NCBI GenBank assembly: GCA_003131315.1
Contig: PKUV01000180.1
Location: 1-64,000, forward strand
Reading direction: 5' to 3'
Source of the DNA: Acidobacteriaceae bacterium
Lineage (GTDB): Bacteria; Acidobacteriota; Terriglobia; Terriglobales; Acidobacteriaceae
DNA length: 64,000 bases
The notes under the pieces were generated by a model. It made no database searches. It was not told the DNA's origin and saw only the letters and a program-made list of their open reading frames with translations. Positions within the stretch are counted from its first letter, which is position 1; each line of letters starts with the position of its first letter. A program made the position numbers and the translations under genes. Of the stretch, positions 15,335 through 30,840 are shown piece after piece.

Positions 15335-16657
15335 TCACGGGCACACGACGGCGTCCATCTGGGGCTCGGTTCGCGAGGCTAGTTCTTTCGCCGTTCTTCC
15401 GACAAAGCACAGAGCGGTCAAAAATATTGCGTAAGAAAGGAGCGTATTAATCGCTGCTCCCCGAGCTCCGAGACTGGGAATGAAGGCGAGGTTCAAGACT
15501 ATGTTGCTGGCAGCGCCGATTCCAGTGCAAAGCAAGATCTTCTTCTCCATCCCCCAGGCGATAAAGGCGTTGCTCAAATAGGAGGTCATGAAATCGAGCG
15601 GTATGGACCAGGCCAGCAGGATCAGCAGTGGGCATGCCGCCACGAACTGATGTCCAAACACAATGGTCAGCACCATCCGGCGGGAAACCGAAATGACGGC
15701 CGCGATTAAAATCCCAGTCCCGAGCAGTGGCAGCAGGATGCGCGGCCTCAGCATGCGGGCGCGGTCTTCGATACCGTGGCGGGCAAACTGAGGATAGAGA
15801 ACCTGCGTCAGCAGGTAGTACGTGGCCAGCACTTGATTCAGGACGCGGTAGGCAGCGCCATAGAGACCAACCTGTTCCGGGTTCGACATGAGACCGAGCA
15901 TCAAAACATCGATGCTGTTGAACGCAAGGTTACAGAGCCAGGCCAGCCCCATAATGCTGGTGCGCCGCCAGGCCAGCGATTCGTGGATGGCACACAGTGT
16001 CCCGCCGTGTACTGATCGCGACGGTTGCCTTCTCCACCACGCCCAGAAGATCGCACCCTGCAGGAGAAACCCAAAAGCATTGCCGGCAACTGCGTACCAC
16101 AGGACGCGCTCCCCTTGCGGCCTGCCGATCGCAAGAAACGCCAGGATGCTGAGGGGAATGGTAGATTTCGCCAAGCCCACCAGATACAGTTTCTCCTGGC
16201 CCCATGCCGCCCAGTCCAGAGAAATGGCATACAGCGCGCCCACTGCCGAAAAGGCGAACAGAAAGATCTTCATCTCCACGGGCAGTTTCGCGCATGCGGA
16301 GTAAACCAGGATCAACGGCAGGACCACGCCTGCCATGAACAGGCGCCGCCGCTGCACGCGATCGACAATGTCGCGCGCGGCCTGAGGATACAAGGCCAAC
16401 AGCCGCGCTCCCACATGTCGCAAGCCGAAGTCGATCAGCGGCTGCAGGTACTGGGTCACACTCTGGGCCAGCGCATAAACGCCCAGGATCACTACCCCAT
16501 ACTGGTGGCCGAGCAATACCACGGTCGCGATGTTGCTCAGGCGGCCCACGAGTTCGCCCGACCCGAGGTGAAAGATGTTCTTGAACAGCCCGCGGAATGG
16601 AATCTTCATCGATGATTGGGGCGATGACACTTGGGGCGATGACCATTGCGAGCCCAA
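15335..16657 (-). CDS. Polysaccharide flippase (Wzx/MATE-like)
   Basis: Polytopic 440 aa protein in EPS operon; ends before the upstream GT2 gene. Confidence 0.85.
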   Translation of the reverse strand: MGSQWSSPQVSSPQSSMKIPFRGLFKNIFHLGSGELVGRLSNIATVVLLGHQYGVVILGVYALAQSVTQYLQPLIDFGLRHVGARLLALYPQAARDIVDRVQRRRLFMAGVVLPLILVYSACAKLPVEMKIFLFAFSAVGALYAISLDWAAWGQEKLYLVGLAKSTIPLSILAFLAIGRPQGERVLWYAVAGNAFGFLLQGAIFWAWWRRQPSRSVHGGTLCAIHESLAWRRTSIMGLAWLCNLAFNSIDVLMLGLMSNPEQVGLYGAAYRVLNQVLATYYLLTQVLYPQFARHGIEDRARMLRPRILLPLLGTGILIAAVISVSRRMVLTIVFGHQFVAACPLLILLAWSIPLDFMTSYLSNAFIAWGMEKKILLCTGIGAASNIVLNLAFIPSLGARGAAINTLLSYAIFLTALCFVGRTAKELASRTEPQMDAVVCP

Positions 16658-25583: not shown

Positions 25584-26231
25584 CTAGAGTGGCCTGCTCG
25601 ACTGGGTTTGCTGGTTGGGCCGGTCTGCGAAGTCGGACGACACGACCAGGCGGCCCGAGTACTTCGCCTCCGGTTCCAAATCGTCCGCATCGACTTCGAC
25701 TGCCACACTCTGCATGATCGCGTCCAGCGCGAGCACAACCCGAAAGTTGTTTTTCTTGCGGACCAGCACGCCTTCCATCCCCGTCATCGGTCCGCACTTG
25801 ATGCGGACCCGCTCACCGATGACGAGGTAGGGATGGGGCTCAATCTTCCGCTGTCCGAGACCGGAGCGGAGCGCCTCGATTTCAAAATCGGGGAGCGGCG
25901 CGAGGGTTCGTCCAAAACCAACCAGCGACACGACACCCGGCACTTCGAGCACGAGCACGCGCTCCCGCGGATCGATGCGCACAAACACGTAATTGGGAAA
26001 AAGTGGCAGCTCGAGGTTCATCTCGCAACGGTTCTTCCAGCGGTGGCGCGTTGCATACAGGGGCAAGAACGTTTCAATTTGGCGCTCGGCAAAGTGCGAG
26101 GCCACGCGTTTTTCGTGATGCGAGTTCGTGTAGGCCGCAAACCAGTTAGCAGAAAAGTCCTGAGCCGCGGTCAACCCATCCATCTTTTGTTGTCTTGCTG
26201 CCAAACCCGTCTGCATGATTTGCGTTTCCAT
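25584..26231 (-). CDS. NusG/RfaH/UpxY-like transcription antiterminator
   Basis: WFAAYTNSHHEKRVASHFAERQIETFLPLYATRHRWKNRCEMNLELPLFPNYVFVRID; first gene of EPS operon. Confidence 0.9.
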   Translation of the reverse strand: METQIMQTGLAARQQKMDGLTAAQDFSANWFAAYTNSHHEKRVASHFAERQIETFLPLYATRHRWKNRCEMNLELPLFPNYVFVRIDPRERVLVLEVPGVVSLVGFGRTLAPLPDFEIEALRSGLGQRKIEPHPYLVIGERVRIKCGPMTGMEGVLVRKKNNFRVVLALDAIMQSVAVEVDADDLEPEAKYSGRLVVSSDFADRPNQQTQSSRPL

Positions 26232-26711: not shown

Positions 26712-26740
26712 TTGACCGCAGGAGTCGTTCAATCTAGAAT
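26712..26740 (+). promoter_or_regulatory. Sigma70-type promoter of the sulfur operon leader
   Basis: TTGACC (26712-26717), 17-bp spacer, TAGAAT (26735-26740); predicted TSS about 26746-26748. Confidence 0.75.
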
Positions 26741-26750
26741 CCGAATCACC

Positions 26751-26840
26751 ATGTTAAGGCAGAATCTTTGCGCGATGTGCATGTGCACTTGTTGTTGTTG
26801 TGCATTTGTGTGTTCTGGCGCGGGGAGGCTGCCGACCTAA
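26751..26840 (+). CDS. Poly-cysteine leader peptide MLRQNLCAMCMCTCCCCAFVCSGAGRLPT
   Basis: 29 codons with 8 Cys (4 consecutive TGT at 26790-26801); starts 3-5 nt after predicted TSS; terminator downstream. Confidence 0.8.
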   Translation: MLRQNLCAMCMCTCCCCAFVCSGAGRLPT

Positions 26841-26868
26841 AGGATTCGTTCTTATACCGGCACTTATA

Positions 26869-26908
26869 ACCCACCGCCAGATGAACCTGGCGGTGGGTTT
26901 TTTGTTTT
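26869..26908 (+). terminator. Intrinsic terminator / attenuator before the sulfite reductase operon
   Basis: Perfect 12-bp stem ACCCACCGCCAG(26869-26880)/CTGGCGGTGGGT(26887-26898), 6-nt loop, then TTTTTGTTTT. Confidence 0.92.
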
Positions 26909-26938
26909 CCGGGACAAACAGTCTGGGGCAATGAGTCT

Positions 26939-28663
26939 ATGACAATCACAACGAAAGAAACCAAGACACAAAGAGTCGAGCGCCTCAAACGCTCCAAGAA
27001 TTCCTGGGAAGGTCTGGAAGAAATTCGACGCTTCGCGCGCGAGGGGTTCGAGTCCATTCCGCCGGAGTGGCTTGGGACCTATTTTCGCTGGTGGGGCGTG
27101 TACACGCAGGGTGATGGGGCGGGCGTAACCGGCGGTCAGGGCGGAGAAGGCCGGGCACTGCAATGCTTCATGGTCAGAATCCGGATTCCCAACGGTCTGC
27201 TGCGTTCCGAACAACTGCGAACCGTTGCCGAACTCACGCGCCGCTACGCTCACGGAATTGCCGACATCACCGTGCGACAAAACATTCAGTTGCACTGGGT
27301 CACGATCGAGGCGCTTCCAGACCTGCTCGAAGCGCTCGAGCGAGTGGGATTGAACACGACGGGTGCCTGCGGCGATGTCACGCGAAATGTCACCGGCTGC
27401 CCGGTCGCGGGAGTGGACGCGGACGAGATTTGCGATGCTTCGCCTTTAGCGCTCGAAGCGTCGCGAATGCTGGCGGGAAATAGCGACTTCTACAACCTCC
27501 CGCGCAAATTCAAGATCTCGATCACCGGATGCCGCGTGTGGTGCCCATATCCGGAGATCAACGATGTTGGGTTGACCGCGACTACTCGCGTGGTGCGCGG
27601 GACGCCTGAGGTTGGTTTCTCCCTGCGGGTTGCGGGAGGACTTTCAACCGAACCCTACCTGGGGGCGCGATTGAACGCGTTTGTCCGATGGCATCAGGCG
27701 CTGCCCGCCATTAAGGGAATTGCCGAACTGTTTCGCGACTCGGATGTGTTACGGGAACATCGCGAGCGGGCGCGGCTGAAATTTCTCTTCCTGCGGCATG
27801 GATGGACGGCGGAGATTTTTCTGGAGGAACTGCAGCGGCGGATTGGATTTCAATTTGATCCCGCGGTCGAAGAGCAGCCGCCTGCGGATGTGTATCGCGA
27901 CCACGTGGGAATTCATCCGCAAAAGCAACCGGGCTACTGCTACGTGGGAGCCGCGGTTCTCCGGGGGCGAATTACCGCGGAGCAGATGCACGCTGCCGCC
28001 GATCTGGCCGATCGCTTCGCGGTCGGCGAACTGCGCGCGACCAACATGCAGAACCTGCTCATTGTGAACGTTCCCCGGCTTCATGCTGAGGACCTGGCCA
28101 AGGAATTGGACGCGATTGGATTGCGGGTGGGCGGCTCGCCCTTCTTTCGCGGCACCGTCGCTTGCAGCGGAACGGAATTCTGCAAGCTGGCGATCACGGA
28201 GACGAAGAGCTTTTCCCGCTGGCTGGTGGAAGAACTGGAAGAACGTCTGCCGGGCTTCGATCAGCACATGAAGCTGCACGTCACGGGCTGCCCGAACAGT
28301 TGCGGACAGCACTGGATTGCCGACATTGGCATTGACGGCAAAAAGATGAAAGTCGAGGGACGTCTCGTCGATGCCTATTCCTTCTGCGTTGGCGGCGCAC
28401 TCGGTCTGCATCAGGCGACGGCGCGGCCCGTGGGATATCGCTGCCCTGCGACTGAGGTCCCGGATGCGATTGAGAGATTGCTCCGGCAATATCTAACCGC
28501 GCGTCAGCCGGGCGAGAACCTGCGTCAGTTCTTTTCCCGGCACACGGACACGGAGTTGCGGGAATTTCTGGCTGGCTCGCCGGTGGACGCGGTCGCCCGC
28601 GATGTGCCGGCGGTGAGTGCCAGAGGAGCTGTAGCGGAAGCCGCCGGAGGAGACGGTGACTAG
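26939..28663 (+). CDS. Siroheme-dependent sulfite/nitrite reductase (ferredoxin type)
   Basis: TGACGDVTRNVTGCPVAG and CSGTEFCKLA..TGCPNSCGQHWIADIG siroheme/4Fe-4S motifs. Confidence 0.92.
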   Translation: MTITTKETKTQRVERLKRSKNSWEGLEEIRRFAREGFESIPPEWLGTYFRWWGVYTQGDGAGVTGGQGGEGRALQCFMVRIRIPNGLLRSEQLRTVAELTRRYAHGIADITVRQNIQLHWVTIEALPDLLEALERVGLNTTGACGDVTRNVTGCPVAGVDADEICDASPLALEASRMLAGNSDFYNLPRKFKISITGCRVWCPYPEINDVGLTATTRVVRGTPEVGFSLRVAGGLSTEPYLGARLNAFVRWHQALPAIKGIAELFRDSDVLREHRERARLKFLFLRHGWTAEIFLEELQRRIGFQFDPAVEEQPPADVYRDHVGIHPQKQPGYCYVGAAVLRGRITAEQMHAAADLADRFAVGELRATNMQNLLIVNVPRLHAEDLAKELDAIGLRVGGSPFFRGTVACSGTEFCKLAITETKSFSRWLVEELEERLPGFDQHMKLHVTGCPNSCGQHWIADIGIDGKKMKVEGRLVDAYSFCVGGALGLHQATARPVGYRCPATEVPDAIERLLRQYLTARQPGENLRQFFSRHTDTELREFLAGSPVDAVARDVPAVSARGAVAEAAGGDGD

Positions 28664-29288
28664 TCTCTTCCCAATGTTTATGAAGCTGGCAGGGAAGCAG
28701 TGCCTGGTCGTCGGCGCGGGGAAAGTCGGCGAGCCCAAGATCGGCGGGCTCATCGACACGGGCGCGAGCATCCACGTGGTTGCGATTGAGGCAAGCGGCC
28801 AAGTTCGCGAGTGGGCGCACGCAGGGAAGATCGAACTGGAACTGCGCGCTTTTTCGGCGGGCGATCTCGACGGCAAATTTCTGGCGGTGGTCGCAACGGC
28901 TTCACGCAGCCTGAACGAACTCATCTATCGCGAGGCGCAGCAGTGCGGAGTGCTGTGCAACGTGGTGGATGTTCCGGAGTATTGCGATTTCTTTTATCCC
29001 GCGGTGGTGCGGCGCGGCGACTTGCAGATCGCAATTTCAACCGCCGGGCAGAGTCCATCGCTGGCGCAGAAACTTCGGCAGCAACTGGAAGGGCAGTTCG
29101 GGGCCGGATACGCGGCGTGGGTTGAGCAGCTCGGCGAGACAAGACGGCTCATTCTGGCCAGCGATCTCGATCAAGAGCGCAAGTGGGAGTTACTGCACTC
29201 ACTGGCGAGCAGGGAATCGTTCGAAGCGGCGCTGGCCAAAGTCCCGGTGCTGAGCACGGTGTTGAGCGCGAAAAGAGAGGGAGCATGA
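28656..29288 (+). CDS. Precorrin-2 dehydrogenase/siroheme synthase, N-terminal CysG-like
   Basis: FMKLAGKQCLVVGAGKVGEPKIGGLIDTGA; overlaps the upstream gene. Confidence 0.88.
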   Translation: MTSLFPMFMKLAGKQCLVVGAGKVGEPKIGGLIDTGASIHVVAIEASGQVREWAHAGKIELELRAFSAGDLDGKFLAVVATASRSLNELIYREAQQCGVLCNVVDVPEYCDFFYPAVVRRGDLQIAISTAGQSPSLAQKLRQQLEGQFGAGYAAWVEQLGETRRLILASDLDQERKWELLHSLASRESFEAALAKVPVLSTVLSAKREGA

Positions 29289-30127
29289 AGGGAAAGGTTT
29301 ATCTGGTGGGCGCAGGTCCGGGCGATCCGGAGTTGCTGACCGTGAAGGCTCTTCGCCTGCTGCGAACCGCCGAAGCGGTTTTGCACGACGACCTGGTCGC
29401 GCCCGAGATACTGAAGCTGATTCCGTCCACCGCCCAGATTCACAACGTGGGCAAGCGCTGCGGAAAAAAGAAAATCCTGCAAGGGGAAATCAATTGCCTG
29501 ATGGTCGCGTTGGCGGCCTCGGGACTGCGCGTGGTCCGGCTGAAGGGCGGAGATCCGCTGATTTTTGGACGCGTCGGGGAAGAGATCGAATCCCTGCGCG
29601 CAAACAACATTCCGTTCGAGATTGTTCCTGGCGTGACCTCGGCTCTGGGTGCGGCTGCGGCGGCCCGGATTCCGCTGACGCATCGCCGAGCGTCTGCGGC
29701 GCTGGTGCTCATTACTGCACATCGGGCTTCCGACAAAGATGCTTCGGATTGGAGCAAGTTTGTCGCGAGCGGAGCGACGCTTGTGATTTATATGCCGGGA
29801 CAAAACTACTCGGATATCGCGAAGCGGCTGACGTCGGCAGGACTGGCCGGCGAGACACCGTGCGCCGTCATCTCGCGCGCTACCACGAAGTATCAGCGGA
29901 CGCATCGCACGACGGTGCTCGGTCTGCATCGCGCGCCGCAACTCGCCGCTCCAACGCTGCTGGTTGTCGGCGAAGTCGTGCGCTTGGCCGACCCCGCTGC
30001 CATGGTCGACGAATTCGTGGCGCCAGCGCTGTCGCAGGATAGGGACAGTTTGTTTCCGGTTGCACTTTTCAAAACATTCCACTCCCATGCGCCGCGCCTG
30101 GGAGCGGACGAGGAGCCGATAGCGTGA
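29285..30127 (+). CDS. cobA: Uroporphyrinogen-III C-methyltransferase
   Basis: [43 protein letters not shown]. Confidence 0.92.
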   Translation: [280 protein letters not shown]

Positions 30128-30840
30128 AAGACAAGATCGCAGACGTGCAGTTAAACGCAGAAGGTTGGAGTCCGCAGCGGGTGCTGTCCTGGGCGTTTGA
30201 GACATTTGGCAATGAAGTGGCCATCTCGACGGCCTTTGGTGCCGAGGGGATGGCGACGATCGATATTGCTTCGAGGGTACGCAAGGATTTTCGCGTCTTC
30301 ACGATTGATACCGAATTCCTCTTTCCCGAAACGTACAGCCTGATCGACAGAATCGAACAAAAGTATGAAATTAAAATCGAGAGAGTCTTTCCTCTGCTCT
30401 CGCCGGAGAAGCAGGAGCGCGCCCACGGCCCGGAGCTTTGGACCCGCGATCCCGACCAATGCTGCAATCTGCGGAAGGTCGAGCCGCTCCGCCGCAAACT
30501 GACGGAACTGGGTGCGTGGATCGCGAGCATCCGCCGCGACCAGACCTTGTTCCGTAAGGGCGCTGGCAAAGTGGAGTGGGACGTGAAATTCGGGTTAGTG
30601 AAGGTAAATCCGATCGCCGACTGGAATTCGAAACAAGTTTGGCGCTACCTCCGCGAACACGGCGTGCCTTACAACGCACTCCATGATCTGAACTATCCCA
30701 GCATCGGTTGCACGCATTGCACGCGAGCCGTCCGTCCGGGGGAAGATCCCAGGGCGGGGCGCTGGCCGGGCTCGGGCAAAACTGAGTGCGGTTTGCACAT
30801 CATCGAGCCGTTGAGGCGATTGCCTGAAGCGGACGCATAG
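30124..30840 (+). CDS. cysH: Adenylyl-/phosphoadenylyl-sulfate reductase (Fe-S type, probably APS reductase)
   Basis: DQCCNLRKVEPL and SIGCTHCTRAV Cys pairs typical of 4Fe-4S CysH; KTECGLHI catalytic motif. Confidence 0.92.
   Translation: MKDKIADVQLNAEGWSPQRVLSWAFETFGNEVAISTAFGAEGMATIDIASRVRKDFRVFTIDTEFLFPETYSLIDRIEQKYEIKIERVFPLLSPEKQERAHGPELWTRDPDQCCNLRKVEPLRRKLTELGAWIASIRRDQTLFRKGAGKVEWDVKFGLVKVNPIADWNSKQVWRYLREHGVPYNALHDLNYPSIGCTHCTRAVRPGEDPRAGRWPGSGKTECGLHIIEPLRRLPEADA

Follow-up and report, generated by a model that had tools for sequence, protein, structure and literature searches.

We analyzed a 64,000-nucleotide stretch of an Acidobacteriaceae genome (hereafter, the window), in which the genes of a sulfite reductase operon are preceded by a short element that very probably represents a cysteine-responsive, ribosome-mediated transcription attenuator, turning the operon on when cysteine is short. 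Such an attenuator had been proposed in the first-pass annotation of this stretch, and at the level of comparative anatomy the proposal is supported by conserved anatomy, folding and spacing. As in classical attenuators, a leader ORF ahead of a presumably sulfide-producing operon contains a run of codons for the end product, an intrinsic terminator lies between this ORF and the first gene, and an antiterminator sharing the 5' arm of the terminator is located just past the predicted stall site (Table 1).

Table 1. Positions of the leader elements and of the downstream genes in the window
Feature	Positions	Strand	Observation
Sigma-70-like promoter, TTGACC-17-TAGAAT	26712..26740	+	Geometry recurs in 23/26 leaders
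Leader ORF MLRQNLCAMCMCTCCCCAFVCSGAGRLPT, predicted to be near-leaderless, 8 Cys	26751..26840	+	Cys-run leader at 30/30 orthologous loci
Run of four TGT (Cys) codons, where the ribosome is proposed to stall	26790..26801	+	Sequence
Antiterminator 5' arm UCUGGCGcGGGG	26814..26825	+	Pairs with 26870-26881; conserved in relatives
Inner antiterminator helix, UGCCG 26830-26834 / CGGCA 26858-26862, enclosing the stop codon of the leader	26829..26862	+	Variable pair is C-G, U-G or U-A
Intrinsic terminator with 13-bp stem; U-rich tract continues to 26908	26868..26899	+	Compensatory changes in relatives
Sulfite/nitrite reductase hemoprotein, NirA/CysI superfamily	26939..28663	+	First regulated gene; NIR_SIR, NIR_SIR_ferr
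Siroheme synthase N-terminal domain protein, precorrin-2 dehydrogenase type	28656..29288	+	NCBIfam/Pfam
Uroporphyrinogen-III C-methyltransferase	29288..30127	+	Start within ORF 29183-30127 uncertain; NCBIfam/Pfam
Phosphoadenylyl-sulfate reductase CysH	30124..30840	+	Above NCBIfam cut-off

The Cys-run leader and its operon

Family searches agree with the earlier assignment of the downstream genes to a sulfite reductase operon, giving a member of the sulfite/nitrite-reductase family, siroheme synthesis and cysH. The reductase obtained its best scores with NirA-type models of NCBIfam and Pfam, yet below the cut-offs of those models; the siroheme synthase N-terminal protein, the uroporphyrinogen-III methyltransferase and CysH each exceeded the cut-off of at least one model in these collections. 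Because the siroheme genes and cysH adjoin the reductase, assimilatory sulfite reduction is the natural reading of the operon's role, the exact substrate of the reductase being deduced from this gene context. A gene for an UpxY/RfaH-like transcription antiterminator (25584-26231, minus strand) is located divergently from the cysteine leader, beside polysaccharide-export-type genes.

Both the promoter and the leader ATG at 26751 are present in the sequence as originally described, and TTGACC-17-TAGAAT is the only promoter-like site within 600 nt (0.3 expected). Of 26 scored leaders, 23 have a sigma-70-like promoter (9 or more matches of 12) with the end of its -10 box 5-13 nt upstream of the leader ATG, compared with 0.2 expected by shuffling; the same geometry is seen in L002 if the next in-frame ATG, read by eye, is taken as the start. 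These distances predict 5' leaders of approximately 0-8 nt in nearly all relatives, and their recurrence suggests that the near-leaderless layout is conserved. Shine-Dalgarno-like motifs were absent upstream of the scored leaders, except where the -10 box itself was matched. In three acidobacterial genomes, approximately 10-19% of genes have been predicted to be leaderless (PMC3160421), and leaderless initiation is therefore plausible there.

The leader ORF had been recognized initially from its 8 Cys in 29 codons and is present with this composition; it ends at a TAA stop codon (26838-26840) and is the sole ORF of 12-45 codons with four consecutive Cys on either strand of the window. Within the Cys runs of the leaders, TGT and TGC occur 89 and 14 times, respectively (86% UGU), compared with 6 and 51 times in 12 genes of the window, where UGC prevails by approximately 8 to 1. 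The UGU bias in the runs is compatible with selection favouring either slow decoding or little structure. The codon of Cys21 (26811-26813), which specifies Ser in many relatives, is too near the antiterminator arm for useful stalling. Elsewhere in the same genome, runs of four TGY codons are as frequent as in the reversed control, and among 52 such sites listed, none of the 20 inspected was shown to be a comparable leader; one four-TGY site (L147) has a 29-codon ORF, MSRAFNLTCTSGLDCCCCWCCCWSWRIGW.

Competing RNA structures and their conservation

The region from 26812 through the terminator 5' arm folds with -28.4 kcal/mol, lower than all 200 shuffles, into an antiterminator composed of UCUGGCG/CGCCAGA, GGG/CCC and the inner helix UGCCG/CGGCA. 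The outer pairing proposed previously was recovered independently as an inverted repeat (26814-26825/26870-26881, 83% complementary), and the inner helix is an addition of the present analysis. The terminator, at first described as a perfect 12-bp hairpin, is present, but its stem contains 13 perfect pairs (26868-26880/26887-26899). For the complete ribosome-free leader of the window, the minimum-energy fold consists of a 5' protector and the terminator. In nascent untranslated RNA, the terminator 5' arm is calculated to be paired upstream with a probability of approximately 0.7, and the protector helix is not robust in this ensemble. With respect to the untranslated state, energy calculations are ambiguous between the protector plus terminator and upstream pairing of the terminator 5' arm.

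A design of terminator and antiterminator is common to riboswitches, and the element might be a riboswitch or T-box, binding a metabolite or tRNA, in which the Cys-rich ORF is coincidental. This appears extremely unlikely: a search across the window matched no Rfam family at the gathering threshold, and no match below it was meaningful when the leader was searched permissively, T-box and known-riboswitch models included. Moreover, only the coding run and the competing helices are conserved, nothing resembling an aptamer core is seen, and at related loci the codon of the run changes with the regulated pathway.

Reductase matches were detected in 37 of 61 relatives, and 30 orthologous loci were fetched; at every one of the 30, the sulfite/nitrite-reductase-type gene is preceded by a leader ORF that contains two or more Cys codons in a row. 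The Cys run and the antiterminator, whose loss in close relatives had been named beforehand as counting against a cysteine attenuator, were looked for there, and both are kept. In the genus, the family and part of a second family of the order, relatives maintain the distance from promoter to ATG, the Cys run and its distance to the arm, and both the antiterminator and the terminator. Of 27 leaders, 26 have an antiterminator whose stability exceeds the mean of its shuffles, including those of the second family (L026-L030), in which it has been rebuilt from unrelated arm sequences and only 3-4 Cys are left in most members. An exception to this pattern of maintenance is L014, with a degraded antiterminator and a truncated leader peptide.

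Of the antiterminator cells in 21 close relatives, 90% are paired; sliding the partner lowers this to 27-47%. Within the family of the window, the outer antiterminator helix hardly varies, so that covariation there is weak and not above shuffles; a change from U-A to C-G at one pair appears only with distant members included. RNAalifold on a tight alignment displayed only the terminator and the inner helix, because the outer antiterminator competes with the terminator. The terminator itself shows covariation, with compensatory changes in relatives. In L008, L014-L016, L019, L026 and L027, the hairpin was mislocated or overlooked by the automatic terminator scan; alignment by eye and folding show it there.

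These observations bear on two other explanations. First, the same stalling leader could exert control mainly at translation or through Rho, by unmasking a ribosome site or blocking Rho, with the terminator hairpin playing a minor part, as mycobacterial poly-Cys leaders without conserved terminators have been described as translational attenuators or possibly Rho-linked (PMC1262725; PMC13236596). We consider this improbable here, since the strong U-tailed intrinsic terminator is conserved and covarying, the partner of the antiterminator is the terminator 5' arm rather than the start region of the gene, and the terminator ends approximately 18-80 nt before the gene in most relatives. Second, the leader peptide itself could be the product (such as a metal- or thiol-binding Cys-rich micropeptide), the terminator merely lowering downstream expression. 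Such a role would explain why a Cys-rich peptide is conserved at many loci, but it is very unlikely given how the peptide varies. Its ends differ among relatives, with truncation in L014; in L005, a one-base insertion after CCCC shifts the peptide frame toward a new stop soon after and leaves the antiterminator arm unchanged, which argues that the RNA, not the C-terminal peptide, is under selection. In addition, the second family has mostly 3-4 Cys and keeps the RNA arm and spacing instead, and the rare codon UGU in the runs suits a codon-level sensor.

A named collection of 80 loci gave a similar picture for the cysteine attenuator, with a Cys leader at 35 of the 40 loci labelled as acidobacterial (our own count); the acidobacterial loci without a leader are L069, L070, L080, L093 and L116. 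The best named reductase matches belong to Terriglobia and Candidatus Sulfotelmatobacter, which probably places the window in this part of Acidobacteriota. Leader carriers include the cultivated relatives Terracidiphilus gabretensis, Silvibacterium bohemicum and Granulicella rosea, so direct testing is possible. No convincing leader was detected at the non-acidobacterial homologues of this collection (Rokubacteria, Streptomyces, Armatimonadota and others). A 56-codon ORF with CC in L109 was rejected, having the appearance of a chance occurrence. One locus labelled Opitutia (L078) contains an acidobacterial-type reductase and a Cys leader, and is probably a misassigned contig.

Ribosome positions and the proposed mechanism

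The antiterminator arm starts about 10-17 nt downstream of the last codon of the Cys run, 10 nt being a lower bound set by the calculation. Judged from standard bacterial ribosome footprints, a ribosome paused for want of Cys-tRNA at any codon of 26790-26801 would leave the arm free, and a ribosome at codon 21 or beyond would cover part of it. On the stop codon, a ribosome would cover roughly 26822-26852, that is, GGG and the inner helix. The first-pass annotation had a ribosome at this stop (26838) covering the antiterminator arm, which holds for GGG and needs amendment for CUGGCG, where a standard footprint would reach only the edge. As the stop codon lies inside the loop closed by the inner helix, a ribosome at that position would disrupt this helix and GGG, not the whole arm.

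In the proposed mechanism, RNA polymerase would start a few bases upstream of the leader ATG, and a ribosome would load on the almost leaderless mRNA without a Shine-Dalgarno site. When Cys-tRNA is scarce, the ribosome would stall in the UGU run with its leading edge just short of 26814, so that 26814-26825, together with the inner helix, would be available for pairing with the terminator 5' arm as the latter emerges. The antiterminator thus formed would block the terminator, and the sulfite-reductase/siroheme/cysH operon would be transcribed. When cysteine is plentiful, the ribosome would advance over the antiterminator, allowing the 13-bp terminator to form and transcription to stop before the operon. 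If this reading is true, a cysteine attenuator acts via an intrinsic terminator, and leaderless translation feeds into a termination decision.

Related leaders in Acidobacteriota and comparison with known systems

A covariance model was constructed that covers only the antiterminator and terminator region and leaves out the Cys codons of the run. In the genome of the window, it gave one strong sense match; a second match was rejected, since the terminator was read on the other strand. Over the phylum, matches were found in 20 of 396 genomes. Cys leaders with the same antiterminator and terminator precede a rhodanese-like gene together with a family 2A encapsulin shell gene (L038-L040, L046 and L048), and Cys leaders were also found before cysteine synthase (L042, L045 and L051) and cysH (L052). 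A search for encapsulin 2A in the genome of the window gave no match, but the control was without signal either. Sulfur metabolism and cysteine desulfurase cargo have been associated with family 2A-type encapsulins (PMC8049743), and the leaders reported here predict cysteine control of the family 2A encapsulin operon in related acidobacteria. It seems fairly likely that a cysteine regulon of near-leaderless poly-Cys transcription attenuators extends across Acidobacteriota (sulfite reductase, PAPS reductase, cysteine synthase, and the rhodanese plus family 2A encapsulin operon), with sister attenuators built on the same RNA plan serving the methionine, branched-chain, aromatic and threonine pathways.

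Several leaders rich in other amino acids were also observed. In the genome of the window, a likely branched-chain attenuator (C191:15823-15908; L034 1436-1600, C191 about 15758-15922) lies upstream of acetolactate synthase and comprises a leader with a GTG start, MTNGQRLLRIIIKIPEVRVRLGAGERVS, and a terminator after it, and a Leu/Ile/Val-rich leader is located before dihydroxy-acid dehydratase in L049. The same RNA model gave a Trp/Tyr-rich leader before DAHP synthase (L044) and a Thr-rich leader before homoserine dehydrogenase (L054). In L047 and L053, a Met-rich leader (MYMCCMAMPMRGPSALGGMLM and MAMAMRGPTGGGGALM, respectively) and a terminator precede O-acetylhomoserine sulfhydrylase, possibly representing a methionine attenuator, which is an uncommon kind. 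Family search backs the names encapsulin, rhodanese-like, cysteine synthase (L042), sulfhydrylase (L053), DAHP synthase and acetolactate synthase, and the gene names at L045, L047, L049, L051, L052 and L054 were assigned by reading the sequences.

Poly-Cys leaderless short ORFs upstream of mycobacterial and actinobacterial cys genes are reportedly described in Canestrari 2020 (doi 10.1111/mmi.14498). In mycobacteria and a few other actinobacteria, poly-Cys leaders have been documented, with no conserved terminator detected (PMC1262725), and control in mycobacteria has been described as translational (PMC13236596). The leaderless poly-Cys ORFs of these organisms (Seliverstov 2005, PMC1262725; Shell 2015, PMC4633059) resemble the acidobacterial element in that a short poly-Cys ORF heads sulfur-assimilation operons; cysteine is the proposed or shown signal there and is proposed to be so here. 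For the mycobacterial leaders, no conserved terminator hairpin was found and control has been described as translational or possibly Rho-linked, whereas in the acidobacterial element an antiterminator competes with an intrinsic terminator that is conserved and covaries; this element does not belong to a type characterized by control of downstream translation and no conserved intrinsic terminator. The phyla differ as well, and the likeness was drawn without a comparison of peptide sequences.

As of 2010, almost no predicted attenuators in Acidobacteriota had an assigned function (PMC2965389), and the present reading, if true, would assign one in this phylum. The kind of mechanism is known; in a literature search whose coverage of relevant papers was incomplete, we found no earlier description of an acidobacterial cysteine attenuator or of a variant that is near-leaderless and has an intrinsic terminator. 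Similar to the classical trp/his/ilv attenuators of proteobacteria and some actinobacteria, the element has a leader peptide rich in the end product and an antiterminator and terminator sharing one arm, and stalling, which leads to readthrough in those systems, is proposed to do so here. It differs from them in its proposed cysteine signal, in an ORF predicted to be near-leaderless and without a Shine-Dalgarno site, and in an extra inner helix within the antiterminator.
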